DNA from: a virus
Virus record (IMG/VR): IMGVR_UViG_3300042564_001440
Location: 1-30,935 of that record
DNA: 30,935 nt
Direction: 5' to 3' (one strand)
This document shows positions 547-24,662 of the stretch, piece after piece. Under the pieces are notes generated by a model. That model did no database searches and was not told the DNA's origin. It was given only the letters and a program-made list of their open reading frames with translations. Each line of letters starts with the position of its first letter. The first letter of the stretch is position 1. The translations under genes were made by a program, and so were the position numbers.

Positions 547-550
547 CTAA

Positions 551-1972: not shown

Positions 1973-1973
1973 T

Positions 1974-3713: not shown

Positions 3714-3715
3714 GA

Positions 3716-4366: not shown

Positions 4367-4374
4367 GTTTTTAT

Positions 4375-4379
4375 CTTCC
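4375..4379 (-). promoter_or_regulatory. Ribosome binding site deciding the start of the 216-residue gene
   Basis: GGAAG on the minus strand is eight bases from the ATG at 4364-4366. The two longer in-frame candidates (ATG 4379-4381, TTG 4394-4396) have only AT-rich sequence in front. Confidence 0.55.
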
Positions 4380-4386
4380 ATAATGA

Positions 4387-4394
4387 TATTTATC
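4387..4394 (-). promoter_or_regulatory. Late-promoter-like element before the 216-residue structural gene
   Basis: Read on the minus strand the sequence is GATAAATA, one mismatch from TATAAATA. It lies in the 47-base spacer between the protease stop and the ATG at 4366. The expected transcript start near 4381 would fall just before the GGAAG ribosome binding site, which supports the ATG at 4366 over the in-frame TTG at 4396. Confidence 0.4.
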
Positions 4395-4413
4395 AATATA
4401 ATTTATTCGTATT

Positions 4414-6070: not shown

Positions 6071-6904
6071 TTAGTCTTCCAGTTTTAATATAGTTAGATC
6101 GACAGTAATAACCCTAGAGGATGAATCTTTATTAGTCACTGCTAGATATATTGTAGAAGTTGATGTAGTATCGTTATTAAATCCAAGAACACCTGGAGTA
6201 ATTAGTTGTGTTAGTCCGCCGGAGGTAGTGATAACTTCTGCAATAACACCACTACCTGGGATCGGGTCATTACCTTCTGTTCTACTAGCGTCAGCAGTTC
6301 TACTTGTAGCATCCGAATATAATCGTATCCAGGCAGGATAGTTAGTAACTAGTTTTGACAATAGGTACGATTTATATCCAGATACTTGACAATTTTCTGT
6401 TGCGGCAGCGGCTAAACTCAATGCTGTAGTTGCTCTAACTGTAGTTCTTGTAGATAAACCAACTACTGTTGCAGGACTCCATGTTGAACTACTAGCACTC
6501 CAGACTAGTGCTTGACCGTTTGCAGGGACAGTCGTTGCAGTATCAACATCAAGAAAAGCATTAATACTTGTAGCAGTATACGCTGCCGGTGTTCCAGTTA
6601 ATGATGAATAAAGACCGCTAGTGGATACCGCAGACAATGTAAGCCACTTAGTATTGTAATTAGTAGAATCAATTTTTGCTAATACTTGATTAGCAGTTCC
6701 ACCTGCAATTACACCAACACCAGCAGTACCCGTGGTGCCCGGTGTCCCATTATCTCCTTTAAATCCACTACTAGTTAAATCTCTTGATATTTGATTTAAA
6801 AAACTTGAGTAATTGACTCGTTTTGTAAGCCGATTGTCAACAACTACAAATGTTGTAGCATTCGTAACACTTGTAATAGTCGGTAATAGCGTAATATTTG
6901 GCAT
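6071..6904 (-). CDS. Tail fibre-like structural protein
   Basis: The 277-residue protein starts two bases after the giant gene's stop; the last codons of that gene (GAGGGATAT) supply the ribosome binding site. The N-terminus, with TFVVVDNRLTKRVNYSSFLN at 18-37, resembles the attachment part of many small phage fibre proteins. It is followed by a very short collagen-like Gly-X-X run at 47-62 and by GGTANQVLAKIDSTNYNTKW (68-87), a motif frequent in phage fibres. NGQALVWSASSSTWSP is a second common fibre repeat. The C-terminal half is Thr/Ser-rich and predicted beta. A structural fibre or fibre-connector role is inferred; the exact partner is unknown. Confidence 0.6.
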   Translation of the reverse strand: MPNITLLPTITSVTNATTFVVVDNRLTKRVNYSSFLNQISRDLTSSGFKGDNGTPGTTGTAGVGVIAGGTANQVLAKIDSTNYNTKWLTLSAVSTSGLYSSLTGTPAAYTATSINAFLDVDTATTVPANGQALVWSASSSTWSPATVVGLSTRTTVRATTALSLAAAATENCQVSGYKSYLLSKLVTNYPAWIRLYSDATSRTADASRTEGNDPIPGSGVIAEVITTSGGLTQLITPGVLGFNNDTTSTSTIYLAVTNKDSSSRVITVDLTILKLED

Positions 6905-6906
6905 GT

Positions 6907-9900
6907 TTAATATCCCTCTAAAGGTTCTCCGTTTTCGTCTGTTAATGCAATACTATTTTCTATGAGAACTTTTTCTCCACCATAGAAATATATGTCTGGT
7001 AATTCTGCTGGTCTTGAACGTAGGAAGTTTGCCTGCGTTCCAGTACTGAATAGCAACGAAGTTGAAGCAGAGTCTGTCCAGAATTCTGCTTCACGCTTAA
7101 CTACCGTTATCCTTGTTCCAGTTGTAATTTCTTCAGCAATATTTAACACTAATGTGCTAGTTCCTGTTATAGTAAACTCCGGCTGTAATATCTCATAACT
7201 CGACGTATTAACTCCGTCAACTTTTATAGACGATGAAGTGTAATAAGAACGGGACTTATCATGTACTATCATTGAAGACTTTCTTAACTGTCGGCCGCCA
7301 TAATAAACTTCAACTTGATCTACAGCATTAGCAAGTGTCGACAAAACAATGCCGTCCCCTGCATGAGTAGAAGTGTTAATCAAAAATGTAGATGTTCCAG
7401 TTGATGCACTAATAATATAAGTTGTAGTATTTGAGCTAGGAATATGTTGAATTAAACTATAATCCGTTGTAGGAATATTTTGGCGTATGCTTTGATCAAT
7501 AACTTCTGTACCAATGTCAGAGAATTTTGCAGGACCAGTTCCTAATGTTGATCTTCTTAGACCACTTAGTACATTACCATCCTTGGCAGTATATTCAATT
7601 CTTTCTCCATCAACATAGATTACTCCAGGTACATTTCTGTCAGGAATAGGCTGTAGCAAATGGTCGCCATTTGCTACAACAATTGTATTATCAGTGTATT
7701 GCAAAGGCTGTGCTAGACGAGTACTAAAATATTCTGATATACGTTTGTAATGATGTCTTCCAAACATATCTTTAAAGATTCTATGGCCCAATACTGAACT
7801 TCCATATGAAGGTGGATTGAATACCATAACAACTATATCATCTTCTGGAAAAATGTCTACAGATCCTGAAAATTCAATTGATCGGAAATCTTCCATTACT
7901 GAATAATCAAATCCAGCGATTAATGGAGTATCATTAACAGTGACCCATACATAATTTTCATTAAGTACTGGATAAGTTAATATTACAGGGTCGTTACCAT
8001 TAAATCGTTCAGTCCTGATCATCATGTTATCATGATCAGTAAAGGACGTTACCTTAATAGTAGCACTATTAACTGGTTGAGTTAGGCGTAAATTTCTACC
8101 AGATACAAAATAGTCATACGTGCCGCCAAGTAATGATTCAATTGCTATAGCATCACCTGTAACAATATTAGGATTAATTAAATTAATAGTTAACGCTAAT
8201 ACTGTAAAATCATATCCTGGTCTTAATTCAATTCCGTTAAGATAGACTTTAACATTGTCCAATGTATATAGGCCGCTGTTTTCAGGTTGCTTAATATTGA
8301 TTGGATATTCTGTTTGACCAGCTTGTACTTTATGATAACTAGCCCAAGGTGGTAGTAATCGGTCTCGGACCGTTGATGTTATTTTTTCAACAATTACTTG
8401 TTCACTTACTGGTTCAATTGTTCCAGGTGCTCTATCAAGAGTTAGATTAGAAGTCGCAGTTGAACCTATGGTATAATACTGTTCATGGAATGTATTAAAT
8501 TTAGGGAAAGGATAATCAAAGAACCACGCTTCTAAATTATATATATTACTGCTTAATCCGTTAACAGTGACCATAGCTCTATTACTATTAGAAGCGGCCG
8601 GAGACAATACATAACCGTAAACTGCTAGATTACTAGGATTTCCAGATGGTGGAACTTCTTCACCGTTTAGCAATACATACACACTTCTTACATCATCAAA
8701 TCCTAGCAAACTAGTAACTGCAACGGTGCCTGTATTTCCAACGGTTGATGGAAGTTCAACTCCTATATATTCACTGTCTACAGTAACGTCGGCTCCTACA
8801 GTAACAAAAGAATATCCTACAATAGTATAAACTAGTTGAATAGGAACAATTATAGTATTATTAAAAATACAGTACTGGGTAGAACTAGTAAATGAAGCCT
8901 CGTTGTTAACCCTGTCAAATACTTTGCCGTTGGCTTGTACTCTAAATCCCAGCGGAGCATCAGGCAACCACGATAATGTAGCTCTAGTTATACCATCAGT
9001 TCCAGCTGCAAATGCACCTGAAACTACCATAGGATAAGATGATGATTCTGCCACTGTGAATACATTAATGCCTATAGAATCTGTAACATACCCTGGAACA
9101 CATTCTTCAGGTGCATAACTATCAACAGCATTTAAAAAGTTGTTTCCATCTATGATAATATCTTCTGGTTTGTATCCAAGAGAAGTGTCACTGATTGTAC
9201 TTCCGTTTATTACACTGTCTAAATTATTATAGTCATTGTTGGTAGAATAGAACTCTAATTCAGTTGCACCAAATAGACTAACATTCATAGTTCCTGAAAT
9301 AGTTGCAGTCGAAGTTGAATATATAGAAACTACTGCTCTATCAAGTCCATCAATAGAATTAGAAATTCTATACCAAATAGTAGTTGTACTTTCTGGTAAT
9401 ACGTCAACAAATGTTGTTGTGCTAACTTCTTTAAATTTTACTTCTGCTCTAGTAACATCAGTGAACGGTGCAAATGTTTGCATTGACAATATTGTTGCCG
9501 ATGACATTGATTCAGTTGCTCGGTACAATAATTTATTAGAAGCTTCTAGATCATTCAGTAGACTTAAAAGTCTAAAACTAGCTCCAGGATTTAATGTAGT
9601 TGATGTGCTACCTAATTCCCATCGGTCAGATCTAATTTCAATATAGTTGTCAGTACATTTCTTTACTTCGGCATTTAAATTAAATCCTGGATCAAGGAAA
9701 ACAGTATATGAATCTGTAGTTACTGGACTAACCGTTCCACTAAATGTTAGTATAGGTGGTACAGAATAACCTATACCAGGCCATCCTGCAAGTACTGAGA
9801 TGTTAGTTACCGTGAGTCCAACTTGAGTTATCTGAACTTTAGCCTGACGGCCATTTGGTAAGTCAGGAGGAGAAACTACAGCAGTGACTAAAGATGTAGT

Positions 9901-12900
9901 TGATGTAGATAAAATTGGCGTTGTTGTGGTATTAATGTAATCAATTCCGTAACCACCAGTACTGTTAACTCCGTTGATTAATATAAAATCACCTGGTTTT
10001 ACCGACGTATTGAAAGACTCTCTAGTATTAATAACAATTGTCGAAAGTGTTGCGGTGGTACCTGTAGAGTATATATGTTTTATTTGTGTGTCTATTTCAT
10101 CAAGAGTACCAATGAATATTCTAGAACCTAAAACTTCAGTTACTACCGTGGTAGATCTAAATATCTGAGTAGATGTATTCAACGGCGCTATAGTTTGTCC
10201 CGGATAAATTCCATCTGATGAATCTGTGTCAATCCATAGACTGTCTTTCTTTAAATCTCCTGTAAGTTTAGCTACTGCATAGCTACTTACAGTGTCTCCC
10301 CAAGGTGCTGAGTCATAACGTGTACCTGTGTTATCCCAGTTAGGAGTTTGGTCAAACATTAACCCTTGTATAGATATACCAGGATACTCCGCGCCTTCCA
10401 TTAGCAACGGTAATTCTTTTCCTGGCATTAGATCAGTAGGATTGTATAGGTTGATAATCCTATCTACAGCATTGTATAAATCAATATTTTTGTTATAGGT
10501 AACTTTAAACACTTGGCCATATGCTGGAACTTTATTTAAAAATACAAATTTACTGTAATGTTTAATGTACTTAGGTACATCTCCTGATCTATCAGTGTTT
10601 AAGAAATATCTATAACGGTGATCCGTCATCTTTTCGCCTGTCCAAGAATTTTCAGGGAACGTTCTTGATACATCTATTCCAACATTTTCTTCTGCAATCT
10701 GATAATATTCTATAGTGTAATCGGTACCAAATACTAATTTACCATCTAACAACGGAGTTATATTTTGTTTATCTGGACTTGCAAGCCAAGATAATGTAAA
10801 TTTATCTAAGGTGCCGTCACAGATAAATGTATCAGTGACTGTTAAATTAGTCAGGTCTCCAACTGTAGAAGTTCTATCAAATTTTAATCCAATTATATTT
10901 TTTCTAACGGCGTCATTGGCCATGATGACCGACACCCTAGCAGTATCATTAGTAGTACTATTTGAGATAGTTACTATTGGAGGGATTACATAACCAGATC
11001 CAGAATTGGTTACAATTACTTTATACAGCTCACCGTTTCTAATGTATGCTTCAGCTGTTGCACCCGAACCAGTATCTCCAGTAGATGTAGTAATAGTTAC
11101 TGTAGGTCTTTGTGTATATCCTGAACCTGCGTACCCCACTTCAATTGCACTTACATAAAACTTATAATTGTCTTTCCAAGATTTATAAGGATATGAATCT
11201 ACTAAAGAGTTATCTAAATCAATTACATCAAGAGAATCTGTAGTTGTATTATAATAAGAAGGCAAATCAAAGTCAGTAGTATATAAATCAGCTTGTTCTG
11301 CTTTGTCATAAACTGAAGTATAATTTCTTATTTTTGTATGATACGGCTTGACTTCATTAATATAATTTTCAAAGTATTCTTCGTTGTTTAATTTATAAAC
11401 AGGTCGTTGATCAAGTGTTCCAATATTATTAAACACATTAATAAAGGAAGTTTTGAATGCCCAGTCAAGTAATTTTTGTTCAGTTAACGTATACTTAACT
11501 GCGGCAAAGAAGAACAAATTCCAATTTACTTTTAATGAATTAATAAAAATATTATTCTTTAATGCAATAAGAATGTAGTACAATTCTTGATCAGGAATTT
11601 GATCATACAAGGTTTCTTCAATAGTTGCACTATCGTAAGCATACTTGCCTATGTTATAATCCCATAAGGTATCTAATAATTGAATAGTTCCTTGTTCTCT
11701 ATAAACAATGTTATAGGAAGGAATGTAATTTCCTCCGCCAGATACTTTCTGAAGAATAGCATATTTGCTATCTCCAATATTTTTAACTTTTACATAGTCT
11801 CCATCAACAACAGATGTTAATGACCCTATTGCAAACAAATCTGAAATTGTGTACTGTATAGTTTTATAAGAATCATAAGTAGCACTAGACCAATCGACTG
11901 TGGTCCAGAATAACGGAGTATTATATTGTTGTGTTTGAACTTTAACCCAAGTTCTTAAAGAATAATCAAAACTATGTTTAGTCCATCTGTTTCCACTATC
12001 ACTGTTAACCTGTACTATTATAGAATGAGAACGGATTTTAACATTTACCAGGCCGTCCGCATATCCATTGCCTGGATTAATAATTGTTGTAGAAATCACT
12101 CGGCCGTCAACATCTAATTCAGTTACAATTTCACCAATTGCCGAACCAGTTGACAATATAGTAACTTTAGGTGCAATGGTATAACCAAAGCCTGGATTAG
12201 TAATAACAACACTTCTTATTTTTCCATTCTCTGCTCGACATTCTAATTCTGCTTTAACAAAATTAATTGTAGACACTTCATCGAGAGACGCAAGGTCTTC
12301 AACTACTGCATCGTATTCATAAGAAAATAATGCAGGTATTTCTTCTACTTTGTTTAGGTTTTCAAAAGAATAATTTCCTACAATTCTATTTTCTTTAAAG
12401 ACAGAATTTACAAATGTAATTAAATTACGTAATGCTGCTAATCGATCTTTGAACAATGTTTGTTGAGGACGAATTCCAATACCATATCTGTTTCTATAGG
12501 TAAGATTTTTTGCAGGCACTACATTTCTGTCTACTGTAGAGTCATGTCCTAATAAACTATCAAAAAGTTTTTTCTCTAACAACGTATTAGGAACACTGGT
12601 ATGATCACCTTCGTTTAACAACAACCATTCAGTGTGTTTAGGAGTAGAAATACTGTAGTCAATAGTAATATTAGCATTGATCCTATTTCCAACTAACATT
12701 GGTTGGACGTTAGCAAATGCTACAGAACTCGGTGATAATATTTCAACAAATTTCAAACCGTTAGCAACTGGGTCTGCAATATAACTTGCAACTTGAAACC
12801 CGCTCAATCTTCTGTTCTCGGCTTTAGGCAAAGTAACTTTATTCTTAACCCAGAAGTAATAAACATTTTCAAACGATCCTGTTACATTATTAAATAATTG

Positions 12901-15900
12901 CTTAACAGAAATAACGCTGTTGTCTGGATACTTAGGTTGTCCACTAATGCTGTTAACTAGTCCTTTAGTAGTATCGGCTTGGGCGGCCCACTCGGCGGGT
13001 AATAGGTCGGATTTGACCCACTCGTATACGTCAATACTGGCACCTGGGAACATTCTACCCCAGTTATTTTTTCTAAATATTTCATCGCCTTGCTCATACC
13101 ACATGAACTTTGCAGTACTTAAATCCCACCATAGTTCACCTACGTGTTCATCTAACCAATTTGTTTCAGTATTAACAATAGTTCCCGCAAGTCCAATAGA
13201 ATATGTAGCTGGGTCAAACGCAGCTTTGAATTTTAATTCTTGTTCGGCAATTCCAGCAATCTTTCCTTTAACTGGATCAATTACATCTAGATAGTCAACT
13301 ACCTCTTCTTTTACTGTATCAATTAAGGCAACACGACCTATCGGTAATACATCGACTGTATTTTCTTGTTCTCTCAAAACTTTCCAACTTTGAGAAGTTA
13401 GATCTGTTTTACTGAATATATATAATTCAGAAGTATCAGTTGTTGATGCTGAATACGGTTGACTAGTAGGAGCCCCAACAAATACTTCGTTGTTAGTTAC
13501 AACCGTGGCGGCGCCATATCTACTACCGGACAATATATTAACATCATTTAATTCGTCTGCTTGTATAAACTTATTACCTACTTTATTATACAGATAAACT
13601 GTGCCAGCATCTGGAATTATTTCGTTAAACTTAGTAGAGCCGCCGTCAAAAGTTGTTTGGCCTGCGCTGCTAGATTCATCAAATAGTTGTTCACGGCTTC
13701 TAGTTTTTCCTAGAGCACCAATACTAATAGTTTGTTCGTCTTTACTAATAGAAATAGAATAACCAAACTTCAAATCATTAGTAGGTAAAGGATTGTCAAT
13801 AATTTGATTTAAAACATATATCCCTGATGTGTTTGTAAAGATTGCAACTTTACCATACGGCTCATTTGTATACTTGATCTCAGGAGCGGAAATTAACAGA
13901 TACTTACCACTATCTGAAACTGCAATGTCATGCCCAAATCTACCACCTTCAGCAAACTCTGCTAAGAACGGATAATTAACAGGCTGAGAATACGACAAAT
14001 CGGTGTTAAACAAATGAACAGTGCCAGAAGAGGCAACGTACCCAGGGGCACTAATTGCAAATCCAATTGAACACTCGGCAATCTTATAACCCCATTGACT
14101 GCCAGCGGATAGTGTAATAGACGAAGTTGTTAACTCAATTCCACGAACATGTGATATTACTGTAGAAGATGTTGTAATACTATAAGCATATACTGATCCA
14201 GTGCCTGCAAATGTAGTAGACCCAGGAGCACCTACTAATAATGTTGTGGAACTAGTGGATGGTACTCGATTAATACAAATAGAATGTCCAAATCTAGAAT
14301 TGTCAGCAGGACGTGGATTTGCTATAACAATTTCAGTAAAGATAGGATAATCTTCTTGTCGACTATCAATTTTAACTAACCCTTCCTTGACATAAGGTCT
14401 AGCATATCCAGAGCCAGTACTTAATACATTAGTACCAGTAACAATTGCGGCTCTAACATAAGTAGCCTCAGGAGCACCTGTGACATATAATTTCTTTCCT
14501 ATATCATATTGTAAAGCATAACCAAACTGTGTAGAACTTGTAGCACTACAGTAAGTTTTTAAGTTACTATTTAAAATATAATCATATTTGCGAGTCCATA
14601 CACTGTTTACTTTATTGAAAACTTTAACACGACCTTGACTGTACGCCCCATCAATTCTCCAGCTAGGAGCAGATACTAGCATTACAGAACTGTCATTTGA
14701 TGCAAAAATTGAAGTTCCGAACCTCTGACCTGCAGGAGTATCAGCAGTGTCAATTGTTGTTACAGAATAGTTTTTAACTTTTTCATAGACCTGCCATTTA
14801 CCGTCAGTGCCGCTGTCTATCCAAACTTTGTCGCCAGCATTTAATTTTAAAAGATCTGTGACTTGAGATAACTCATCTAAATTACTATATCTTGCTTCTT
14901 CAAATTTATATAAGGATCCGTAATTTAATAATGCTTCATTTTCAATGCTAGACAATCCAGTAGAAACTGTGAATTGATTTGTGTTTACAATAGAATTAAC
15001 AATGTAAACTCCGTTAACTTGAGCATTAAATCTTACTACAGAAATAACATCACCTGTCTGAAGTCTGTGATGACTGTCTGTTACGAAAGTAATTTCACTG
15101 CCAGGAGCACTAACAAATACTCCAGATATTTCAGCTAACTGTTTAGCATATCTGTAAACAGTCCAATCTCCATTTTCTTGAAATCCTAGCCAAACTGTGT
15201 CACCGTCTTGTATTGCAGAATTGTTAGCAATGTCCAATAAACTGTTTTTGTTGTAAGCCGTAGATGTAACGTCATCTGGTCTTACATAACCAGCTGTGGT
15301 TAGTTTTAAATTATTATCTTCCCAGGTACCAGCATAGGAACTTATTGTATTTGCAGGGTCATAACCATCTGGTGTTAATAACAATGTTGATGAAGTTATA
15401 TAATTAATTAAAGGATTAGCGTCAGCAGGCAATGTATTAACAAATTTAACTAGATAGGGATTTTCTAAATAGGTGCCTTCTTCTAACTGAAATTCAATTT
15501 CATTTAATGATGAGTAACTTCCATAATGTCCTGTTCTAAAGGCCCACTCTTCTTTAAATGAGAGGTCTCCTTTATTTGTAAATTCGCTGGCCTTGGCCAA
15601 TTTGTCAACTGCATTCTTAGTGCCTTTGTCTTTGATCATGCCTTGATAGAATTTATATTGACTAATTGGATTAGTGAATATATTATTTAGATACGTCCTA
15701 GGAGTATATCCAGTAAGGTGTTGCGCTAATTGCTGTTGACTGTAATCAAAGTTATCAATGTCAAGACTATAAAAATCTTCAAATTGATTAATTTTATAAT
15801 CAAAATTAGGTAGTAATTGAGGAACTGGCTTTTTACTTAATTGTTCCCATTTGGTAAAATCAAATATAGAATCAGAAGTAATTTTTACCAATGACTCGTA

Positions 15901-18900
15901 ATATCTACCATTGTATCTTACAACCTTACCTGGCAGATATGTTTTGTATGCCTGCCAGTCATTGATTTCAACATTGTCATAGACAAAGCCGGGACTGAAT
16001 AAGTCGCCGTTCCAATTCTTCGTTCTAAATCCAGAAAGTTTAATTCTTAGTTGTCTGTACCCTGTTTCAATATCATAGATAATATCGTTGAATACTGTAA
16101 AATTATTAAACACCATAGCGTGTTCTTTTTGCACAGAATTTAATGCAGCAAAGAATAATCCTTCATTAGCATCTCTGGTCTTAATTGTACATATAGTATC
16201 TTCTCTAGCCATGGTAAATTTATCAATAGGATAAGGTTTACCGTCTGCTTTTAATAAACTGTATTCATATTTTCCTGTAGAAATATTATCAACAACAGAA
16301 TTAGGGAAATTATATTTGATGTAATTGGCAAAAGGACTTAAAGTAATTAAGTTGCCATCTGCCCAATTCTGCGTAGTCCAGTACAAAAATTCTTTGCCAG
16401 TAAACTTCCAATTTAACATTTCGTTTAAATCAGAGTTGAATTCATCAAAGATAAATCCCTGTGTTTCGAGATATGCACCATAACCTATGATAACATCATA
16501 TACTGCTTGAATTGTTGTAAATTCTGTGCCGTAAGGAATTTGTGTTACAGTAGATTCAAATTTTGAAGAAGCCTGGACGGCAGCACCGCCTTTAATTGGC
16601 AACTCTGGAAGACCTTGAAATAATGCAGGATCAAATGTAGCTCCTGCATTATGCCCTATTTTAACTCTATAGAACTTGTTATTATATCTTACAAGCTGTC
16701 CTTGTTTGTAATATCGACCGGTAGTAGATTCTACCGATGTATTATCAACTGAACTTACGCCTTTGTTTCCGTTATTAACAACATTTGACCAATCTGAGAA
16801 ATCTTCAGATATACCTCCAACCTTAACAGCACCCGAAGAAAAAGAAGAAATAGGTTGTAGTATTTCAAAATATGGATTTGCTATATCGTAGCCCTTGACT
16901 ATAAAATTACCATTAGATCGTTGGACAATGATTCCAGAAATTCTAGCAGTCTTGATAGGATTGCTGACATTTAAGATCAAAGAATAATCTTCAGATGGTA
17001 GTACAACTCCAGGGCTTGTTGAAGTAGGATCAATGGAGTCAATAATAATTTGTAGCTTGTCTTTACTAACAAACCCGCCAACCTTATGGAAAAGATTAAC
17101 ATTGAGATATTCAAGATCCTGTCTTAATTTTACAATATAATTTTGATCTTTCTGTCTACCTCTTTCAATAATGTAAGATCCAAAGCCTGCAATTTGATTA
17201 TTTGACTCGCCTTCAATAATTAATTTTCTAGGATCTAAATATGAATCATCTTCAGTATAGGTTACTTGTCCAACAGGATTGATAGTAGTTCTACTAACAT
17301 CAAATAAAGACGAACACACTGTACACGGATTTAATAAGGCGGCTGCGGCAAGTAACGAGAATCTGGAATGACTACTTCGTCTCCAAACAAACTCTGCAGG
17401 GCCACGATCGCCAAACTTCCAATATGATTTTTTATCTTGGTATGAATTTGCAGTAACTAAAAAGGTATTAGGAGTTTTTAAATTTCCATCTACGTCAACT
17501 GGGATGATTGATAATAAATCAGGTCTTGCATAGTCAGGTAGATATACATTTTCGCCCCTCAGGTATCCATTTTTCAAATCAGTCCAAAGTTTTGTATTGG
17601 TTGATTTGTAAGGGGCGATGCCGTATTCACTGACCCACCAAGCAGGAGCTTCGGTTAACCCTAACATTTTCCAAGGAATAAGGTTAGGCTGGATAGTATC
17701 GTAAAAATACGTGAAAAGAGTTTTCCAGTGTCCTGAAATTTCATTTTTATCTACAACATCAAGGCTACCTGTGTAATTCCAAGTACGAGGGTTTGTTTCA
17801 TCAAAGGTATTATTAGTAGTAGCATCAACTCCGTAGGTACCTGCCCAACGAGAAAAATCATTTATTAATATACTGTCTACATCAGCAACCGTATAATTCT
17901 TTTTTCTAAAGGCTCCTGGAATTACTGCGTTAATATCAAATATGCTACTGTTATATTGAACCTTAATATTATTAAAAATTCTTAATTCAAATTCTAAAAT
18001 AATATCATCTCTGTAATCATCATAGGCGTTTATTAAACTACCATCGTGTCCTTGAATTACATTTACCTGGCCTGTGGCCAATGTAGTATCAGGAAGTATC
18101 TGAGGAATAGAAGATGGGTACAATCCTAACTTTGATGGAGTAGGAGGAATATAACACCCTAACGTATCAATGTAATAATTAATTGTTATTATATCACCAA
18201 CTGATATAGGAGTTGATAGTATTACAGATCCGTCAATGTAATCAAAAGTATATTGAGAACCATGTATTAAATGTGTTCCATTAATATAAACAATTACGGA
18301 TTGAAAACTTAATCTAGTTAAATCAAATTCAAAACCAATTGGATATTCTACGTTGGCAACGTCAGTAACTGTAAATGTTCTTACTGTTTTGTTTTGCCCG
18401 TAGCCTAACATATCAGAACGCTGATATAAAGATTTAAGATCTTTATCTTTATTAAGAGTTGCTAATATTAAATCAAGTGCATCCGCTGCAGATAGCTGAC
18501 TGTCAACATTTTGTATAGCTTTTAAAAAATTCATCTTAAACTGGTCATAATGTTGCCCAGCTTGTCTAATAGAGTCGACTACGTTGTGTTCTTTCTTACC
18601 AAGAAAAATTTGAGAAAATGTAATTGGACTAGCATTGACTACTAATCTTGAACCATATTTGGCATAGTCAGTTAAGTCTCTTAAATTATTTCCAGTGTAT
18701 GCCGATGTTTTAGCAAGCATCGAATATACATGATCGCCTAACTCACTCAAGGTTAAACTTGAAGCAAATCCATTCAACGGATTATTTGTTAAACTGATAG
18801 GAGTTTCATAGTACCCATTGCCATTAGGAATTTGATCAGTTTCTATTTTTAATAAAACTACCTCGTCTTTTAACAATATACTTTCTGTAGTTAATGTAAT

Positions 18901-20598
18901 CTTCCCGGTAGTAGCAGTTGTGCTTACTGGTATTTTTTTATTATTAACATACGCAGATACGGTCAATTCAGTATTAATAGGCGAATCAAAACAGGTTACA
19001 TTGATAGTATTAGTATTCTCAGATAGGGTTTGAATTTCTAAAACAGGAATTTTATAATCAACAGATTGCGCCCAAACATTAGTTAATACATCATTTAATT
19101 TTAGATAAGTGATTGCTGTTGAAATTGTTCTACTTACATTATTGTTAGTCAATATAATAGTGTCTGTCATAAAATAATTTTTAAACAGATAACTACCAGC
19201 ACCTATATTATTTTGATACTTTAAAGAGAATCCTAAAACTGGATCAACATTACCGGTGCCAACTTCATAACCAAAAATTTGATTTCCTACAAAGTTATTA
19301 GCTTCATCAACCTCAGTATAACTAATTCCAGTGCTAGTAAACAAATCAAATAATGGTGGTTGATTTACAGTTTCGTGTTGCTGGGCATAAATCCATTTAC
19401 TCAATGATGCATTAAAATACCAACTTGTTCCGTAGTATTCTGTACCAAAATTTACACTTACAGAATCCATATCTGTGGGTGTTAAATCTTCGGCTCCTAT
19501 GAGGCGTAGTACAGGGACTTCGCCTGATATATCAAAATTAACTTGAAATATTTTACCTCTTACTGCTAAATCATCATCATTATTAAAAACAACTCGATGG
19601 CCTTGCTGTAATAAAATACCATCAACATAATAACCGTAAGTACCGTCAACTGTACCAAATGCGTCTGTAGTAGAGTCGTCAATTACATCAACGTTTCGAA
19701 TTCCAGATTTTCCAAAATTATAAAGTTTTAAATCTGCTTTAAACTCAATAACAGGACGGTTGGCTCTAGAAGATAACGGATATATTACCGGAATATTATT
19801 AATCTCAGATGTTACTCTGATAATTTCTTTGTGGAACCATCTATTATAACGTGTCCAAGGATTTAAATCTGAACTAGCTCTATTAATTGTAATGTAATCA
19901 GGAGTTAGCGGTAATTTTTTATCACCATCAAACGGATAATCATCAAATTGAACATTGTCAAATGTTTCGTCAAATACGGTAGCAGTTTTATCATAAGAAT
20001 CTAATACATTGTATTCTATTAGTTTAATAGATAATCCCACTCCTTCAACTAGATAAACAATTCCTTCAACTGAAATTTTCATACCGTTGCTTAATAGGTA
20101 ACCATTTTCCATTTCATAAGAAACTTCACCTACAATATCAGCTAATGTTTCCGTGGCCGCTAATGTAATTAAGTTTGGGCCGGTAGGCAACCAATAGTAA
20201 TCTGTAAAGTTGATTAGCTTATCCCAATCAATTAATGGATCATAAGAATAAAATTCTGATCTAAATAACTTGTCAAGATTAGAATTTTTGCCGCCTTGTA
20301 TTCCTATTTCGTTGATCAGGTCATCATAAGACACTACGTCTGTGACGTTATTATTAGAATCTCTAAATACTAACGCAGGTTCTAAATTGTAACTGTTCCT
20401 TAATGAAGATTTTTCATCAAGATAAAAGTCTGTACTAGGATTATAGTTAGGAGTAATCTTGGATCCAACAAATCCTTCCAATCTCTCAACTTGGGGAGTT
20501 TGAATAAATTGATCAATCGTGCTAGATAAAAATTTAGAATTCTTATCAGTTTGTAGATATTCTGGTAATAGGTTAACTGATTTTTTAATATCCGCCAT
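6907..20598 (-). CDS. Giant (4563 residues) multidomain baseplate/tail structural protein at the gp7 position
   Basis: This is one uninterrupted frame of 13,692 bases starting one base after the gp6-like stop, with GGAACC as ribosome binding site. By position it replaces T4 gp7 and possibly further wedge or short-fibre proteins; I see no sequence proof of gp7 homology. Recognisable parts: an N-terminal region with WDKLINFTDYYWLPTGPN; two CBM5/12-like segments (about 1292-1326 and 1545-1571); seven FG-GAP blades starting at about residues 1959, 2024, 2102, 2168, 2220, 2277 and 2360; a fibre-type GELWWDLSTAKFMWYEQG module at about 2485-2502; GxGY beta repeats at about 2793-2850, 3151-3210 and 3597-3620; INEVKPYHTKIRNY near 3080-3093; and near the C-terminus VDGERIEYTAKDG with LSGLRRSTLGTG (about 4323-4355). 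There is no signal peptide and no clear membrane segment. Its likely role is the baseplate periphery and host contact. Confidence 0.75.
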   Translation of the reverse strand: MADIKKSVNLLPEYLQTDKNSKFLSSTIDQFIQTPQVERLEGFVGSKITPNYNPSTDFYLDEKSSLRNSYNLEPALVFRDSNNNVTDVVSYDDLINEIGIQGGKNSNLDKLFRSEFYSYDPLIDWDKLINFTDYYWLPTGPNLITLAATETLADIVGEVSYEMENGYLLSNGMKISVEGIVYLVEGVGLSIKLIEYNVLDSYDKTATVFDETFDNVQFDDYPFDGDKKLPLTPDYITINRASSDLNPWTRYNRWFHKEIIRVTSEINNIPVIYPLSSRANRPVIEFKADLKLYNFGKSGIRNVDVIDDSTTDAFGTVDGTYGYYVDGILLQQGHRVVFNNDDDLAVRGKIFQVNFDISGEVPVLRLIGAEDLTPTDMDSVSVNFGTEYYGTSWYFNASLSKWIYAQQHETVNQPPLFDLFTSTGISYTEVDEANNFVGNQIFGYEVGTGNVDPVLGFSLKYQNNIGAGSYLFKNYFMTDTIILTNNNVSRTISTAITYLKLNDVLTNVWAQSVDYKIPVLEIQTLSENTNTINVTCFDSPINTELTVSAYVNNKKIPVSTTATTGKITLTTESILLKDEVVLLKIETDQIPNGNGYYETPISLTNNPLNGFASSLTLSELGDHVYSMLAKTSAYTGNNLRDLTDYAKYGSRLVVNASPITFSQIFLGKKEHNVVDSIRQAGQHYDQFKMNFLKAIQNVDSQLSAADALDLILATLNKDKDLKSLYQRSDMLGYGQNKTVRTFTVTDVANVEYPIGFEFDLTRLSFQSVIVYINGTHLIHGSQYTFDYIDGSVILSTPISVGDIITINYYIDTLGCYIPPTPSKLGLYPSSIPQILPDTTLATGQVNVIQGHDGSLINAYDDYRDDIILEFELRIFNNIKVQYNSSIFDINAVIPGAFRKKNYTVADVDSILINDFSRWAGTYGVDATTNNTFDETNPRTWNYTGSLDVVDKNEISGHWKTLFTYFYDTIQPNLIPWKMLGLTEAPAWWVSEYGIAPYKSTNTKLWTDLKNGYLRGENVYLPDYARPDLLSIIPVDVDGNLKTPNTFLVTANSYQDKKSYWKFGDRGPAEFVWRRSSHSRFSLLAAAALLNPCTVCSSLFDVSRTTINPVGQVTYTEDDSYLDPRKLIIEGESNNQIAGFGSYIIERGRQKDQNYIVKLRQDLEYLNVNLFHKVGGFVSKDKLQIIIDSIDPTSTSPGVVLPSEDYSLILNVSNPIKTARISGIIVQRSNGNFIVKGYDIANPYFEILQPISSFSSGAVKVGGISEDFSDWSNVVNNGNKGVSSVDNTSVESTTGRYYKQGQLVRYNNKFYRVKIGHNAGATFDPALFQGLPELPIKGGAAVQASSKFESTVTQIPYGTEFTTIQAVYDVIIGYGAYLETQGFIFDEFNSDLNEMLNWKFTGKEFLYWTTQNWADGNLITLSPFANYIKYNFPNSVVDNISTGKYEYSLLKADGKPYPIDKFTMAREDTICTIKTRDANEGLFFAALNSVQKEHAMVFNNFTVFNDIIYDIETGYRQLRIKLSGFRTKNWNGDLFSPGFVYDNVEINDWQAYKTYLPGKVVRYNGRYYESLVKITSDSIFDFTKWEQLSKKPVPQLLPNFDYKINQFEDFYSLDIDNFDYSQQQLAQHLTGYTPRTYLNNIFTNPISQYKFYQGMIKDKGTKNAVDKLAKASEFTNKGDLSFKEEWAFRTGHYGSYSSLNEIEFQLEEGTYLENPYLVKFVNTLPADANPLINYITSSTLLLTPDGYDPANTISSYAGTWEDNNLKLTTAGYVRPDDVTSTAYNKNSLLDIANNSAIQDGDTVWLGFQENGDWTVYRYAKQLAEISGVFVSAPGSEITFVTDSHHRLQTGDVISVVRFNAQVNGVYIVNSIVNTNQFTVSTGLSSIENEALLNYGSLYKFEEARYSNLDELSQVTDLLKLNAGDKVWIDSGTDGKWQVYEKVKNYSVTTIDTADTPAGQRFGTSIFASNDSSVMLVSAPSWRIDGAYSQGRVKVFNKVNSVWTRKYDYILNSNLKTYCSATSSTQFGYALQYDIGKKLYVTGAPEATYVRAAIVTGTNVLSTGSGYARPYVKEGLVKIDSRQEDYPIFTEIVIANPRPADNSRFGHSICINRVPSTSSTTLLVGAPGSTTFAGTGSVYAYSITTSSTVISHVRGIELTTSSITLSAGSQWGYKIAECSIGFAISAPGYVASSGTVHLFNTDLSYSQPVNYPFLAEFAEGGRFGHDIAVSDSGKYLLISAPEIKYTNEPYGKVAIFTNTSGIYVLNQIIDNPLPTNDLKFGYSISISKDEQTISIGALGKTRSREQLFDESSSAGQTTFDGGSTKFNEIIPDAGTVYLYNKVGNKFIQADELNDVNILSGSRYGAATVVTNNEVFVGAPTSQPYSASTTDTSELYIFSKTDLTSQSWKVLREQENTVDVLPIGRVALIDTVKEEVVDYLDVIDPVKGKIAGIAEQELKFKAAFDPATYSIGLAGTIVNTETNWLDEHVGELWWDLSTAKFMWYEQGDEIFRKNNWGRMFPGASIDVYEWVKSDLLPAEWAAQADTTKGLVNSISGQPKYPDNSVISVKQLFNNVTGSFENVYYFWVKNKVTLPKAENRRLSGFQVASYIADPVANGLKFVEILSPSSVAFANVQPMLVGNRINANITIDYSISTPKHTEWLLLNEGDHTSVPNTLLEKKLFDSLLGHDSTVDRNVVPAKNLTYRNRYGIGIRPQQTLFKDRLAALRNLITFVNSVFKENRIVGNYSFENLNKVEEIPALFSYEYDAVVEDLASLDEVSTINFVKAELECRAENGKIRSVVITNPGFGYTIAPKVTILSTGSAIGEIVTELDVDGRVISTTIINPGNGYADGLVNVKIRSHSIIVQVNSDSGNRWTKHSFDYSLRTWVKVQTQQYNTPLFWTTVDWSSATYDSYKTIQYTISDLFAIGSLTSVVDGDYVKVKNIGDSKYAILQKVSGGGNYIPSYNIVYREQGTIQLLDTLWDYNIGKYAYDSATIEETLYDQIPDQELYYILIALKNNIFINSLKVNWNLFFFAAVKYTLTEQKLLDWAFKTSFINVFNNIGTLDQRPVYKLNNEEYFENYINEVKPYHTKIRNYTSVYDKAEQADLYTTDFDLPSYYNTTTDSLDVIDLDNSLVDSYPYKSWKDNYKFYVSAIEVGYAGSGYTQRPTVTITTSTGDTGSGATAEAYIRNGELYKVIVTNSGSGYVIPPIVTISNSTTNDTARVSVIMANDAVRKNIIGLKFDRTSTVGDLTNLTVTDTFICDGTLDKFTLSWLASPDKQNITPLLDGKLVFGTDYTIEYYQIAEENVGIDVSRTFPENSWTGEKMTDHRYRYFLNTDRSGDVPKYIKHYSKFVFLNKVPAYGQVFKVTYNKNIDLYNAVDRIINLYNPTDLMPGKELPLLMEGAEYPGISIQGLMFDQTPNWDNTGTRYDSAPWGDTVSSYAVAKLTGDLKKDSLWIDTDSSDGIYPGQTIAPLNTSTQIFRSTTVVTEVLGSRIFIGTLDEIDTQIKHIYSTGTTATLSTIVINTRESFNTSVKPGDFILINGVNSTGGYGIDYINTTTTPILSTSTTSLVTAVVSPPDLPNGRQAKVQITQVGLTVTNISVLAGWPGIGYSVPPILTFSGTVSPVTTDSYTVFLDPGFNLNAEVKKCTDNYIEIRSDRWELGSTSTTLNPGASFRLLSLLNDLEASNKLLYRATESMSSATILSMQTFAPFTDVTRAEVKFKEVSTTTFVDVLPESTTTIWYRISNSIDGLDRAVVSIYSTSTATISGTMNVSLFGATELEFYSTNNDYNNLDSVINGSTISDTSLGYKPEDIIIDGNNFLNAVDSYAPEECVPGYVTDSIGINVFTVAESSSYPMVVSGAFAAGTDGITRATLSWLPDAPLGFRVQANGKVFDRVNNEASFTSSTQYCIFNNTIIVPIQLVYTIVGYSFVTVGADVTVDSEYIGVELPSTVGNTGTVAVTSLLGFDDVRSVYVLLNGEEVPPSGNPSNLAVYGYVLSPAASNSNRAMVTVNGLSSNIYNLEAWFFDYPFPKFNTFHEQYYTIGSTATSNLTLDRAPGTIEPVSEQVIVEKITSTVRDRLLPPWASYHKVQAGQTEYPINIKQPENSGLYTLDNVKVYLNGIELRPGYDFTVLALTINLINPNIVTGDAIAIESLLGGTYDYFVSGRNLRLTQPVNSATIKVTSFTDHDNMMIRTERFNGNDPVILTYPVLNENYVWVTVNDTPLIAGFDYSVMEDFRSIEFSGSVDIFPEDDIVVMVFNPPSYGSSVLGHRIFKDMFGRHHYKRISEYFSTRLAQPLQYTDNTIVVANGDHLLQPIPDRNVPGVIYVDGERIEYTAKDGNVLSGLRRSTLGTGPAKFSDIGTEVIDQSIRQNIPTTDYSLIQHIPSSNTTTYIISASTGTSTFLINTSTHAGDGIVLSTLANAVDQVEVYYGGRQLRKSSMIVHDKSRSYYTSSSIKVDGVNTSSYEILQPEFTITGTSTLVLNIAEEITTGTRITVVKREAEFWTDSASTSLLFSTGTQANFLRSRPAELPDIYFYGGEKVLIENSIALTDENGEPLEGY
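13390..14770 (-). repeat. Seven FG-GAP blades inside the giant protein
   Basis: Within the 4563-residue protein, seven units of about 52-83 residues share the pattern (R/K/Q)(F/Y/W)G..., then a strand ending in SAP, GAP or GAL, and a third strand of the type GxVxxFN. Visible examples are RFGTSIFA/LVSAPS/GRVKVFNK, SRFGHSIC/LLVGAPG/GSVYAYS, GRFGHDIA/LLISAPE/GKVAIFTN and SRYGAATV/VFVGAPT/ELYIFSK. This matches the FG-GAP repeat of integrin-alpha-type beta-propellers, and seven is the normal blade number. Asp/Asn/Ser-rich loops such as SNDSS, SDSGKY and SKDEQ lie where calcium loops occur in some families, but no full canonical calcium motif is evident. Confidence 0.8.
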
Positions 20599-20599
20599 G

Positions 20600-23500
20600 T
20601 TAGGTTCCGCTAGTTGTTACAATTGCCGAAGTCGATTTTAATTGTGATGCTGTAATGGCATCAATTATTTCTATGTCCGAAATTCCTGCACCATTTATAA
20701 AAAGTTCATTTGATTGACAGGCCACTTCGTATAAACTGCCAAAGCTGCCAACACTCTTAGGTGTAACAACAAAGTTAGTTATGTCAGGTGTTAGTTGGTT
20801 CATTACGTAAGTCGACAATTCACTAAAATAGAATGATTGTCCAAAATCCCAATTCTCTAAAGCAAAGAATTCATTGATTGCTGTTAGTATTCTAGTTTTT
20901 AAATCGTTGTCTGTTGTAGGTCTTTCAGAATTTCTTACTGCTTTAAATTTAGCTTGTAAACTAGTAGTAGCATTGCTGCCAAATAATATTTTATATTTTA
21001 CAGAATGAAAAATAATCTCATCGCTGATAGCTTTGATTGGTTCTAAACTAGCAGAATAGTTTTGTTCTAGACTATAGCTTGTAGGAGGAAGTGGTTCACT
21101 GACTGTATTACCTGCTAGCCAACTTCTTACACTGTTGTCGTATCCAGTTGTTAATACATAGATATCAATAATGTTTGATTTACTAGGATCAATTCGTCTA
21201 TCATTTCCACTATTATGAACATAATGAAAGTTAAGGCCAGAGCGGCCAGGGCGAGCAAAATATTGATCTGTGTATACTAATTTATTATCGGCTACAGACC
21301 AATATTTGATAACATTTATTGCTGGGCTGTAAAAATAAAATAAATCGCCATCAGCTACAGAATATGCCGGATTACCTTTGTAAGAATAAAAATCAATTTC
21401 AGTTTCAAAAGGAATAATTCCCGTTGTTAATTCATATCGGGCACCATTACTTAATTTTTTAAAATAAACAAAATTAGTTTTATGATCTATTGAAGTATTA
21501 GCAATTCGTTCTACATAGTCGGGTTCTACAATTGTTTTAAATGACTCTGGATCCTGAATTTGTCCTGTATTATTATAATCGTAAAAACTTACTTTTATTT
21601 TTTTTGGTTCTATGTACCCATCACTTTCTACTACAGGGCCATCAATTTGCCAGGCATAATCTGATGATAACTTTCCGGTAAAATTATTTCCCGCATACCA
21701 TTTTCCAGTAATTTTTCTAGAAATTTTATTTGTAATGGTATTTAGATAATAGTCTCCGTTATTTCCTAAAGAATTAGATACGTTATCAGTGGTGCCGTTG
21801 TACCATTGCCTGTCAGACGATGGTAAAGAATTAACTGATAACACATCAATTCTGTCTTTAACTACAGTATTAGTAATAAAATCATAGTTAACAGAATCAA
21901 TATCTACATAAAATGCAGTTTCTGCTTCGCTTTCGAATATAAAATATAAATTTCTATATCGAACTTTATAATTTTTTCCAGTCCATACAAATGCTATAAT
22001 CCAACTAGAGTCTATTCCTGCATCCTCTACATTGCCTTGATTATCTAAACTAAAAGAATCTAACAAATTTAAATTAGAATTTAAAATTATATCCCAAGTT
22101 CTTGAATCATTTGAAATTGTTAATCCAAAATTTCGTTGACTCATGCACAAATTAGCAATTTCGTTTTCAATGGAAAAGTTTAAAGTTTGTACGTATTTAG
22201 GAATTACTTCAATTGGCACTGCTCCCTGAGGAACACGACTAGAAAATATTACAGGACCAGTTCCGTCGTCAAGTGATCCTGCGCCACTGTTGCTGCCATC
22301 ACCAATTACCTGATAAACCATGGACCACATATAATCTCTGCCGCCTGCAGGAATAAGTCCCGCGTTGGCGCCAGTTGTAGTAACTGCGACTAGATTATTG
22401 TCAGCATCAAAATATTTTCCAATAGGCGGACTAAATTTAACCAAAGCACCCTGGTTTGCATATTTTAAATTATTTTCTGAATACTCCCCCATTGATACCG
22501 GACCTGTGATATTAGAAAAATATCCTCGGCTTTGCCCCGGAGTTTTGTTAACTTCATTCCAGGTCAACAATAACAATGATAAATCAAGGTTATTATATTT
22601 GTTAATATAAAATGAACGACTTCCAGTTGATAACACCACCGGAGCTAGAGAATTTTTAATAACAGAAAGCACTTGGTTTCTACTAGTAAATTCAAATTCA
22701 AAATATTCTTCAGATTCTTCTTGATATAAAATACCGTCTGCGGCAAAAATGTTAGTTTTACTGTATCCACCAGTTACATCGGATATATCAAAATACTTAC
22801 TCAAACCACTGCTAACACGGTTAACACTTTTAACTTTTAATATATCAGAGCCTGCACTCAACGGAGCAATATTATAATCTTCTCCAGTGATCATTCTATT
22901 TTGTAGGTAATAATTTTGAGGAGCTTTAGTTTGAATACTGGCATTGCTTTCTGCACCTGAACTGTTACTAACAGTGTATTGAAGACTCAATGTCATTTGT
23001 AAGGTGTGTGTTTGTCCAACTCCGTTAACATAAGGAACTTGAATAACAATACCACTCATTTGCTCAGGTTTAATAACATAAGACTGTCCATTGCTCTGTC
23101 TGTAGAATAGTCTAAAGTCACCTTTGGGCAAATCACCAAACACGCCGTCAGCAAAGTTTAAATCAATTTGATCATTTTCTCTAGGAGCGATTGCATAGAT
23201 AGTTCTTAAATTTTTATTAAGACTATTATAAATTACGTTATTGCTATTGTTGATAGTAGGAACATCTGTCCATAAAGTTAAAAAGTTTCCATTCTTATCT
23301 AATTGCCATAACCATACATCTGTATCATTAATGTCAGGTGTGTTAATGCCCACAATCTCATTAGGTACAGGATTGTCTAAAGAGAACTGGACCATACTTA
23401 ATGATCCTTGTTTGAACATTGTAAAGAATCCTGTGTCAGCACTACCAGATCCTTGATTGTCGTTTTTATAAATGAAACTAAATTGATTTGCAGGTTCAGG

Positions 23501-24178
23501 AGCCGCTTCATACACATAAGTTCTATCAATAAATGTACAAGGAGCCACCTCAAATCCCATTGACACTCCGTCAATGTTTTTGTTGAAACTAAACAACGGA
23601 ACATCAGTGTTAGCACCGTTGAAATAATATTGTTCTGTTAGGATACCACTTAATGTTACTCTGTCTGCGGGATTTCCAAAATTAGAACTCATTGCAGAAT
23701 TCATAATATTGATAAACTGTTGATACCAATTAGAATTAGTTGAGTCATTCCACCCAATAGTAGTGTTAGCAAGGTTGTTGCCGTTAGAATCAATTACGCT
23801 GTCTGTTGTAGAGATAGCTGTAACTTTTAAAAACCCGTTTGCAGGTGTATTGCGTTTAGGACGATAGCTAATTAGTTGTGCTAACCGTAGGATACTATCA
23901 CGTCGTTGTGCTGTTTCTAAGAAGTTTTCGCGGGCATTTAAATCAATACGGAATGATAAATTTTGACCCAAGTAAGCAATAAGATCAATAAGGGCTATAT
24001 ACTCACTACTATCAATGAAATCGTTAAAATCTTCTGGATAATTTTCCTGAAGATAGGAAATCATTGTACGTCTTAGTGTTTCAAAATCGTAGCTTTTGAA
24101 GTCAGCATTGCGAAAAGATTGATAAATCTTTTTCCAATCTTCGCCGACGAGTAGTTGAGTGTTAGTTGAAGGGATCAT
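20600..24178 (-). CDS. 6: Baseplate wedge protein, gp6-like (P2 gpJ-related), enlarged
   Basis: The 1192-residue protein begins with the conserved gp6 region: LLVGEDWKKIYQSF (9-22), DFETLRRTMISYLQENYPED (31-50), SEYIALIDLIAYLGQNLSF (58-76), ENFLETAQRRDSILRLAQL (84-102). The C-terminal region, about 1090-1185, has the typical pattern INEFFALENWDFGQSFYFSE followed by a TPDITNFVVTP segment. In T4, gp6 dimers form the inner ring that holds the wedges together and drive the baseplate change before contraction. T4 gp6 has about 660 residues, so this protein carries several hundred extra residues, mostly between about 470 and 1050. The extra part includes a fibre-like LGNNGDYYLNT motif with a following GKWY. 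A gap of 46 bases precedes the gene and holds a late-promoter-like element. Confidence 0.9.
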   Translation of the reverse strand: MIPSTNTQLLVGEDWKKIYQSFRNADFKSYDFETLRRTMISYLQENYPEDFNDFIDSSEYIALIDLIAYLGQNLSFRIDLNARENFLETAQRRDSILRLAQLISYRPKRNTPANGFLKVTAISTTDSVIDSNGNNLANTTIGWNDSTNSNWYQQFINIMNSAMSSNFGNPADRVTLSGILTEQYYFNGANTDVPLFSFNKNIDGVSMGFEVAPCTFIDRTYVYEAAPEPANQFSFIYKNDNQGSGSADTGFFTMFKQGSLSMVQFSLDNPVPNEIVGINTPDINDTDVWLWQLDKNGNFLTLWTDVPTINNSNNVIYNSLNKNLRTIYAIAPRENDQIDLNFADGVFGDLPKGDFRLFYRQSNGQSYVIKPEQMSGIVIQVPYVNGVGQTHTLQMTLSLQYTVSNSSGAESNASIQTKAPQNYYLQNRMITGEDYNIAPLSAGSDILKVKSVNRVSSGLSKYFDISDVTGGYSKTNIFAADGILYQEESEEYFEFEFTSRNQVLSVIKNSLAPVVLSTGSRSFYINKYNNLDLSLLLLTWNEVNKTPGQSRGYFSNITGPVSMGEYSENNLKYANQGALVKFSPPIGKYFDADNNLVAVTTTGANAGLIPAGGRDYMWSMVYQVIGDGSNSGAGSLDDGTGPVIFSSRVPQGAVPIEVIPKYVQTLNFSIENEIANLCMSQRNFGLTISNDSRTWDIILNSNLNLLDSFSLDNQGNVEDAGIDSSWIIAFVWTGKNYKVRYRNLYFIFESEAETAFYVDIDSVNYDFITNTVVKDRIDVLSVNSLPSSDRQWYNGTTDNVSNSLGNNGDYYLNTITNKISRKITGKWYAGNNFTGKLSSDYAWQIDGPVVESDGYIEPKKIKVSFYDYNNTGQIQDPESFKTIVEPDYVERIANTSIDHKTNFVYFKKLSNGARYELTTGIIPFETEIDFYSYKGNPAYSVADGDLFYFYSPAINVIKYWSVADNKLVYTDQYFARPGRSGLNFHYVHNSGNDRRIDPSKSNIIDIYVLTTGYDNSVRSWLAGNTVSEPLPPTSYSLEQNYSASLEPIKAISDEIIFHSVKYKILFGSNATTSLQAKFKAVRNSERPTTDNDLKTRILTAINEFFALENWDFGQSFYFSELSTYVMNQLTPDITNFVVTPKSVGSFGSLYEVACQSNELFINGAGISDIEIIDAITASQLKSTSAIVTTSGT

Positions 24179-24224: not shown

Positions 24225-24662
24225 TTATTGCAGGACCAGTCCAATGTTCTGATCGAACAACAATTTCAATGACGATGATTGATCCGTATTTTTCATTACT
24301 AAAACAATATCAATCAAATAGCCTTGTTCGTATTCGTTAACTTGTATTTGTGTAGGATATACTCTCGAATCAGCAGTACAGATTGTTTCAATATCTTTAG
24401 TCAATACATTTCTAATATTAGGAGTCAGTGGTTCCATTAATGTATCCCAGATGATGGTTCCAAAAGTGGGATTCATTACTCGCTGACCTTTTCTTGTGTT
24501 AAAATGATTAAGAATATTCTGTTTAATTAATTCAAAGTCGTAGAGTTTAGATCCTCTATTATCTGGATTAGTGGTGCTAAATCCTTTATAATAATGAGTC
24601 AGCTTGTTAGAGTGTTGACTATTATAGTTTGTAGGAGTAATTTCTAAATTCTTGTAAGGCAT
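24225..24662 (-). CDS. 25: Baseplate wedge protein, gp25-like (GPW/gp25 family)
   Basis: The 145-residue protein matches the gp25/P2 gpW family in size and motif: GQRVMNPTFGTIIWDTLMEP at residues 59-78, the family's characteristic segment in which the Trp-Asp and the Glu-Pro are conserved. Family members sit at the inner baseplate wedge, link the wedge to the hub, and are thought to nucleate sheath assembly. It lies between the spike gene and the gp6-like gene, as W lies between V and J in P2. A likely Shine-Dalgarno sequence (AAAAGGAT) covers the end of the preceding gene and lies 18 bases before the ATG. Confidence 0.92.
   Translation of the reverse strand: MPYKNLEITPTNYNSQHSNKLTHYYKGFSTTNPDNRGSKLYDFELIKQNILNHFNTRKGQRVMNPTFGTIIWDTLMEPLTPNIRNVLTKDIETICTADSRVYPTQIQVNEYEQGYLIDIVLVMKNTDQSSSLKLLFDQNIGLVLQ

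Follow-up and report, generated by a model that had tools for sequence, protein, structure and literature searches.

What is the protein encoded by a 13,692-base frame that lies where T4 carries gene 7, and what does it replace in the baseplate? In T4 the gene order is 6-7-8. In the window, by which we mean the whole stretch of 30,935 bases analysed here (the IMG/VR record IMGVR_UViG_3300042564_001440 consists of this contig only), the order is gp25-gp6 followed by a giant.

The giant frame and its neighbours

The giant ORF opens with ATG, separated by a single base from the stop codon of a gp6-like gene, and runs for 4,563 codons with no internal stop. It takes up 44% of the window, as the first, sequence-only reading of this DNA had described. 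The wedge genes are arranged as follows.

6907..20598, minus strand: giant virion/baseplate protein, 4563 aa (PHROG 10938, E 8e-293, and relatives)
20600..24178, minus strand: gp6-like wedge protein, 1192 aa, directly upstream of the giant (PHROGs and hhalign)
24225..24662, minus strand: gp25-like wedge protein (Pfam GPW_gp25, 3.9e-8)

The upstream neighbours are gp6-, gp25-, gp5- and gp53-like by PHROGs and Pfam. The gp6-like ORF matches phrog_10646 (1e-279) and phrog_219 (1e-20), and its hhalign match to T4 gp6 (E 1.4e-4) served as the gp6-gp6 control. The gp5-like hub protein (24681-26960, minus strand) ends in a GH19 chitinase/endolysin-type domain, not in T4 lysozyme.

On the other side, the giant is followed by a 277-aa protein (6071-6904, minus strand) that has a short collagen-like GXX stretch and belongs with PHROGs 9627 and 15343, both of unknown function. 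Two genes downstream of the giant is a 551-aa subtilase (4414-6069, minus strand; Peptidase_S8, 7e-23); judged by its sequence, it may act in tail maturation or as a protease at the host surface. Subtilase motifs were found in 3 of the 9 relatives of the giant having enough downstream sequence. Positions 1-3713 (minus strand) hold three tandem genes with similar N-terminal segments, of a pattern like LVGRNYSGYGE..FLKLLESFSN.PP, and differing C-termini; the 579-aa member has a tail-collar-like segment at its end.

Purifying selection acts on every part of the giant gene. When it was compared codon by codon with five relatives, dN/dS came to about 0.06-0.33 in every 500-codon block, values that are rough since synonymous sites are near saturation.

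A known family of giants

The full-family profile of PHROG 10938 matched the giant in four stretches (E 8.2e-293), and blastp returned nine jumbo-phage members of that PHROG. With the N-terminal third as query, tblastn found 59 phage records, every one below 60% identity; all of those inspected are jumbo phages. Relatives in jumbo phages include PA5oct gp355 (3,857 aa), RaK2 ORF070 (3,326 aa), Phosso 294 (4,555 aa), SCTP-2 140 (3,807 aa), Atu_ph07 gp180 (4,449 aa), GAP32_230 (3,341 aa) and the proteins of Munch (3,342 aa), XaC1 (3,332 aa) and Vibrio 2.275 (3,771 aa). CBB gp236 is a family member alongside PA5oct gp355. More distant homologues lie directly after gp6 in XacN1 (3,313 aa) and RAS14 (3,138 aa), and AP-J-162 has a listed "structural protein" of 4,455 aa (PMC11242549).

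From IMG/VR, 91 relatives were fetched in two scans (11 close ones, and 80 kept from at least 576 alignment-scan matches). Both ends lie inside the locus in 25 of these, and since these complete relatives span 4,046-4,969 aa, the size of the giant is the norm for its family. The sequence-only reading had singled out the size as remarkable. This view had to be given up, as proteins of up to 7,312 aa occupy this slot in cyanophages. The giant is thus a newly found member of a known, poorly characterised family, which is among the largest proteins that jumbo phages encode.

Others have reported the giant in the virions of two relatives: the record note for PA5oct gp355 gives ESI-MS/MS detection, and CBB_236 was found by mass spectrometry with 21 peptides and 7.72% coverage (PMC5259590). 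In SCTP-2, a second very large protein of 3,096 aa adjoins the giant (L005, 21272-30562).

Gene position after gp6

The placement of a baseplate protein at the T4 gene 7 position, right after gp6, held in the window and well beyond it. The giant directly follows gp6 in all 87 IMG/VR loci that could be tested, with gaps of -20 to +30 nt, and in 11 phage genomes (PA5oct, RaK2, Phosso, Atu_ph07, GAP32, Munch, XaC1, Vibrio 2.275, XacN1, RAS14 and CBB). SCTP-2 is the exception, where the giant gene does not adjoin gp6. In Mel-JY01, a 629-aa gp6 is followed by a 386-aa gene product for which no link was found. Giants right after gp6 are normal in jumbo phages and, as shown below, in cyanophages.

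Conserved cores and variable modules

Across 83 long relatives, conservation is broad at residues 1-1900 and 2400-3350, and residues 2000-2300 and 3400-4563 are variable. Residues ~890-1725 and 2412-2684 make up the deepest core, which is recognisable in XacN1 and RAS14 as well. The parts are listed from the N-terminus.

17149..20598, minus strand: residues 1-1150, well-packed predicted unit common to the family (AlphaFold2 pLDDT 88.6, pTM 0.81)
18835..19047, minus strand: residues 518-588, predicted small beta domain of T4 gp10 / CBA120 TSP4 type (VIA, Foldseek)
18139..18381, minus strand: residues ~740-820, probable gp10-like module (hhalign to T4 gp10)
15424..17931, minus strand: residues 890-1725, deepest conserved core (hmmsearch E ~1e-25; covered in nearly all of the 83 relatives)
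15874..15957, minus strand: residues 1548-1575, CBM5/12-like segment (Pfam PF02839, 3.8e-10)
13399..14751, minus strand: residues ~1950-2400, variable insert of FG-GAP/propeller type (Pfam FG-GAP_2 and coverage)
11149..13461, minus strand: residues 2380-3150, second conserved core (AlphaFold2 pLDDT 80.5)
10927..11163, minus strand: residues 3146-3224, GxGY repeat module (phrog_460, 2.4e-10)
6910..10551, minus strand: residues ~3350-4563, variable C-terminal region (coverage 8-45 of 83)

The model of residues 1-1150 has relatives in BFVD at TM 0.6-0.83, and, taken as a whole, its shape recurs only among predicted proteins from other phages, including the Atu_ph07 giant. Against solved structures, Foldseek and VIA returned small domains only. 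The best of these is the domain at residues 518-588, for which VIA gave Z 7.5 to 7rfv (59 residues superposed, rmsd 1.8) and Z 7.6 to 9d84_B; its list is headed by phage adaptor domains, with Z below 8. Foldseek gave a probability of 0.99 for the same domain, but an E-value of 8.8e-3. As modelled, the gp10-type X-domain fold is present here as a small module. When seven segments of the giant were compared with T4 gp6-gp10 by hhalign, weak matches to gp10 were the only ones, with residues ~740-820 and 4090-4304 reaching E 4.6e-4 in 40 pairwise tests. Pfam found no full-length gp10, with no match to PF07880 or PF21939 (the gp9/10 N-terminal and gp10 C-terminal domains). For the model of residues 2380-3180, Foldseek and VIA listed no fold relative and no convincing PDB match, and phmmer of the whole giant against the PDB found no match.

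Three of the segment types named in the sequence-only reading thus hold up: the fibre modules as the gp10/TSP4-like fold, the carbohydrate-binding-like segments as the CBM5/12 stretch and, marginally, the propeller. The CBM5/12 stretch looks, from its sequence context, like a structural rather than an added host-binding part, because it sits in the most conserved part of the giant. The propeller-type segment barely passes, with FG-GAP_2 at residues 2114-2139 scoring 23.7 bits against a cut-off of 23; coverage in this region falls to 42 of the 83 long relatives. The GxGY repeat module also occurs in the giants of cyanophages and in other tail/neck proteins (S-CAM3 giant by hhalign, E ~1e-10), and residues 4290-4370 in the C-terminal region form another module common to the S-CAM3 giant (hhalign E 4.6e-6).

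Cyanophage giants in the same slot carry a gp7 core

In cyanophages, the order is gp25-gp6-giant-gp8, with the gp8 position named in only some records (ACG-2014e/f, S-CAM3). The giants range from 3,045 to 7,312 aa: S-CAM3 (3,045), ACG-2014e (3,495), ACG-2014f (4,225), MED4-213 (4,458) and, computed from coordinates, S-CAM22 (~6,273; L203, 2855-18501) and P-RSM3 (~7,312; L204, 1-15090). The P-RSM3 protein was deposited as "similar to gp7", and one cyanophage slot giant as "baseplate wedge initiator". A profile of their N-terminal core matches T4 gp7 at residues ~709-757 (hmmsearch E 1.7e-4) and gp7 of T4-like relatives at E down to 1.1e-5. It also finds a 284-aa protein of Det7 type that occupies this slot (best E 4e-4). 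The motif FYSTKGT..SYKFLFKVLY is shared by the cyanophage core, T4 gp7 and the Det7-type protein, and phrog_17744 joins T4 gp7 (3.5e-6) with a cyanophage giant (7e-10). According to a published statement, cyano- and pelagimyophages lack gp7 (PMC7029224). This statement is touched by our finding that the cyanophage protein between gp6 and gp8, including that of P-RSM3 and S-CAM22, carries the T4 gp7 core.

Is the giant T4 gp7?

Direct searches of the giant for gp7 were negative. The gp7 profiles (phrog_964 and Pfam Gp7_helical/5th/6th) gave no match, and no segment had a significant profile match to T4 gp7 by hhalign or hmmsearch. The cyanophage core profile was not significant against the jumbo giants by hmmsearch, and iterating a joint profile built from the gp7 cores of cyanophages, T4 and Det7 failed to lift the giants above noise. 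Tail_P2_I was useless as a gp7 yardstick, missing even T4. Structure prediction in segments, as the sequence-only reading had proposed, gave a confident model for residues 1-1150 and a good one for residues 2380-3180. Neither returned gp7 from the PDB, a negative of limited weight because the models are large, and residues 1580-1760 lie outside both.

Two stretches resemble the gp7 core.

20485..20577, minus strand: residues 8-38, possible gp7-type core-bundle helix, LLPEYLQTDKNSKFLSSTIDQF (window scan)
15529..15645, minus strand: residues 1652-1690, KGT motif QYKFYQGMIKDKGTKNAVDKL, possible second half of the gp7 core (conservation and window scan)

Of 108 windows scanned against the N-terminal core of the cyanophage giants, residues 8-38 ranked first, but their score of 19.4 is below the reversed-sequence null of 23.0. 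Against the cyanophage gp7 core, residues 1652-1677 scored highest of the 108 windows, at 22.1, and no reversed window exceeded 18.2. The spacing is FY-6-KGT in the giant versus FY-2-KGT in gp7, and hmmsearch found no significant match of this motif to the gp7 core. Both motifs were spotted by eye before scanning, and several target profiles were tried, not all agreeing. The two are therefore suggestive only: a lead near noise that has not passed a test.

The 242-aa XM1 gp17 is the orthologue of the 1032-aa T4 gp7 (PMC10457771), which shows how widely the gp7 slot varies in size, and the proteins compared here suggest a range from fewer than 250 to more than 7,000 residues across contractile tails. 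From the position after gp6 and the cyanophage slot giants with a gp7 core, the best reading is therefore that the giant is the gp7-slot wedge protein of a jumbo-type T4-like myophage, which we regard as probable. In the baseplate it likely takes the place of T4 gp7, though this is not proven. This offers a likely function for a family labelled only "virion structural protein" in jumbo-phage records.

A mechanism can be proposed by analogy with T4, XM1 and pyocins (PMC10457771), in which contact with the receptor would widen a wedge scaffold of two gp6 chains plus one gp7-type chain and so start sheath contraction. Each wedge would contain a single copy of the giant, linked to two copies of gp6 by a bundle of core helices, and its long inserted and C-terminal modules would reach outwards to form or carry the baseplate periphery. 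Binding of peripheral adhesins to the cell would then widen the gp6-giant ring and release the sheath. The single copy per wedge, the gp6 partnership and the triggering role are all drawn from that analogy.

Alternative readings

A stronger form of the gp7-slot reading, overlapping with it, is that the giant is a fusion replacing gp7, gp8 and gp10. The sequence-only reading had raised such absorption of several baseplate proteins, and it is possible. In nine jumbo records, the gp6 profile matches all, the gp7 and gp8 profiles match no whole protein, and the gp10 profile gives at most short partial matches in some, a pattern that fits the idea, although a missing profile match does not prove that the gene is missing. 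The gp8 family profiles find true gp8 only in T4 and cyanophage; in jumbo relatives they match the GxGY-repeat stretch only, mostly inside the giants, and gp10-like modules also lie within the giant. However, no full-length gp8 or gp10 region was found in the giant (phrog_977 and phrog_438, the T4 gp8 profiles, do not match it), and in PA5oct a gp10 C-terminal match falls on a separate protein. Gigantism alone does not amount to absorption, because a separate gp8 is retained in cyanophages whose slot proteins are just as large. We consider full replacement somewhat unlikely. Equally tentative is its detailed version, in which one polypeptide per wedge would do the work of T4 gp7, gp8 and inner gp10, with a new 1,150-residue fold, inserted fibre-docking modules and a gp7 core split into the helix at 8-38 and the KGT core at 1652-1690, ~1,600 residues apart.

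Alternatively, the giant could be a peripheral fibre-network or tail-pin protein, a gp10/TSP4-like organiser, with the real gp7 being small, unrecognised and elsewhere. The only solved-structure matches of the giant are small gp10/TSP4/T7-adaptor-type domains, gp10-like modules recur in it, no gp7 profile matches it, and in SCTP-2 it lies apart from gp6. The tight gp6 linkage in the 87 loci and 11 genomes argues against this, as does the fact that the most conserved parts (890-1725 and 2412-2684) differ from the gp10-like modules; small gp10-type domains would fit an enlarged gp7 as well. This reading is unlikely.

That an assembly or frame error fused several genes into the giant ORF, for which its unusual length alone would speak, is already refuted by the relatives and has a negligible chance of being right, because purifying selection acts throughout the gene and 25 complete relatives of similar length occur in other contigs, with similar giants in cultured phages.

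Comparison with known systems

The giant, as a probable gp7-slot wedge protein, has its gene position and a probable gp6-gp7 wedge role in common with T4 gp7 (phrog_964) and XM1 gp17, which have 1032 and 242 aa against its 4,563; T4 gp7 has no significant sequence match to it. With the X-domains of CBA120 TSP4 and T4 gp10, it shares the predicted fold of residues 518-588, and 740-820 and 4090-4304 are probable gp10-like modules. In the giant, however, these modules lie within a much larger protein, and no enzymatic tailspike part was seen.

The cyanophage giants (PHROGs 4406, 2885 and 701) likewise occupy the slot after gp25-gp6 and have the GxGY repeats and one C-terminal beta module in common with the window giant. 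The two groups are related only in modules, with no full-length similarity; the gp7 core motif is clear in the cyanophage giants but marginal in the window giant, and a separate gp8 follows the cyanophage giant where annotated (ACG-2014e/f, S-CAM3). The closest counterparts are the jumbo-phage giants of PHROG 10938. At 3.3-4.6 thousand residues, they differ from the window protein in the variable insert and C-terminal modules, and share with it 24-30% identity over the first 1150 residues, the conserved cores and, except in SCTP-2, the position after gp6.
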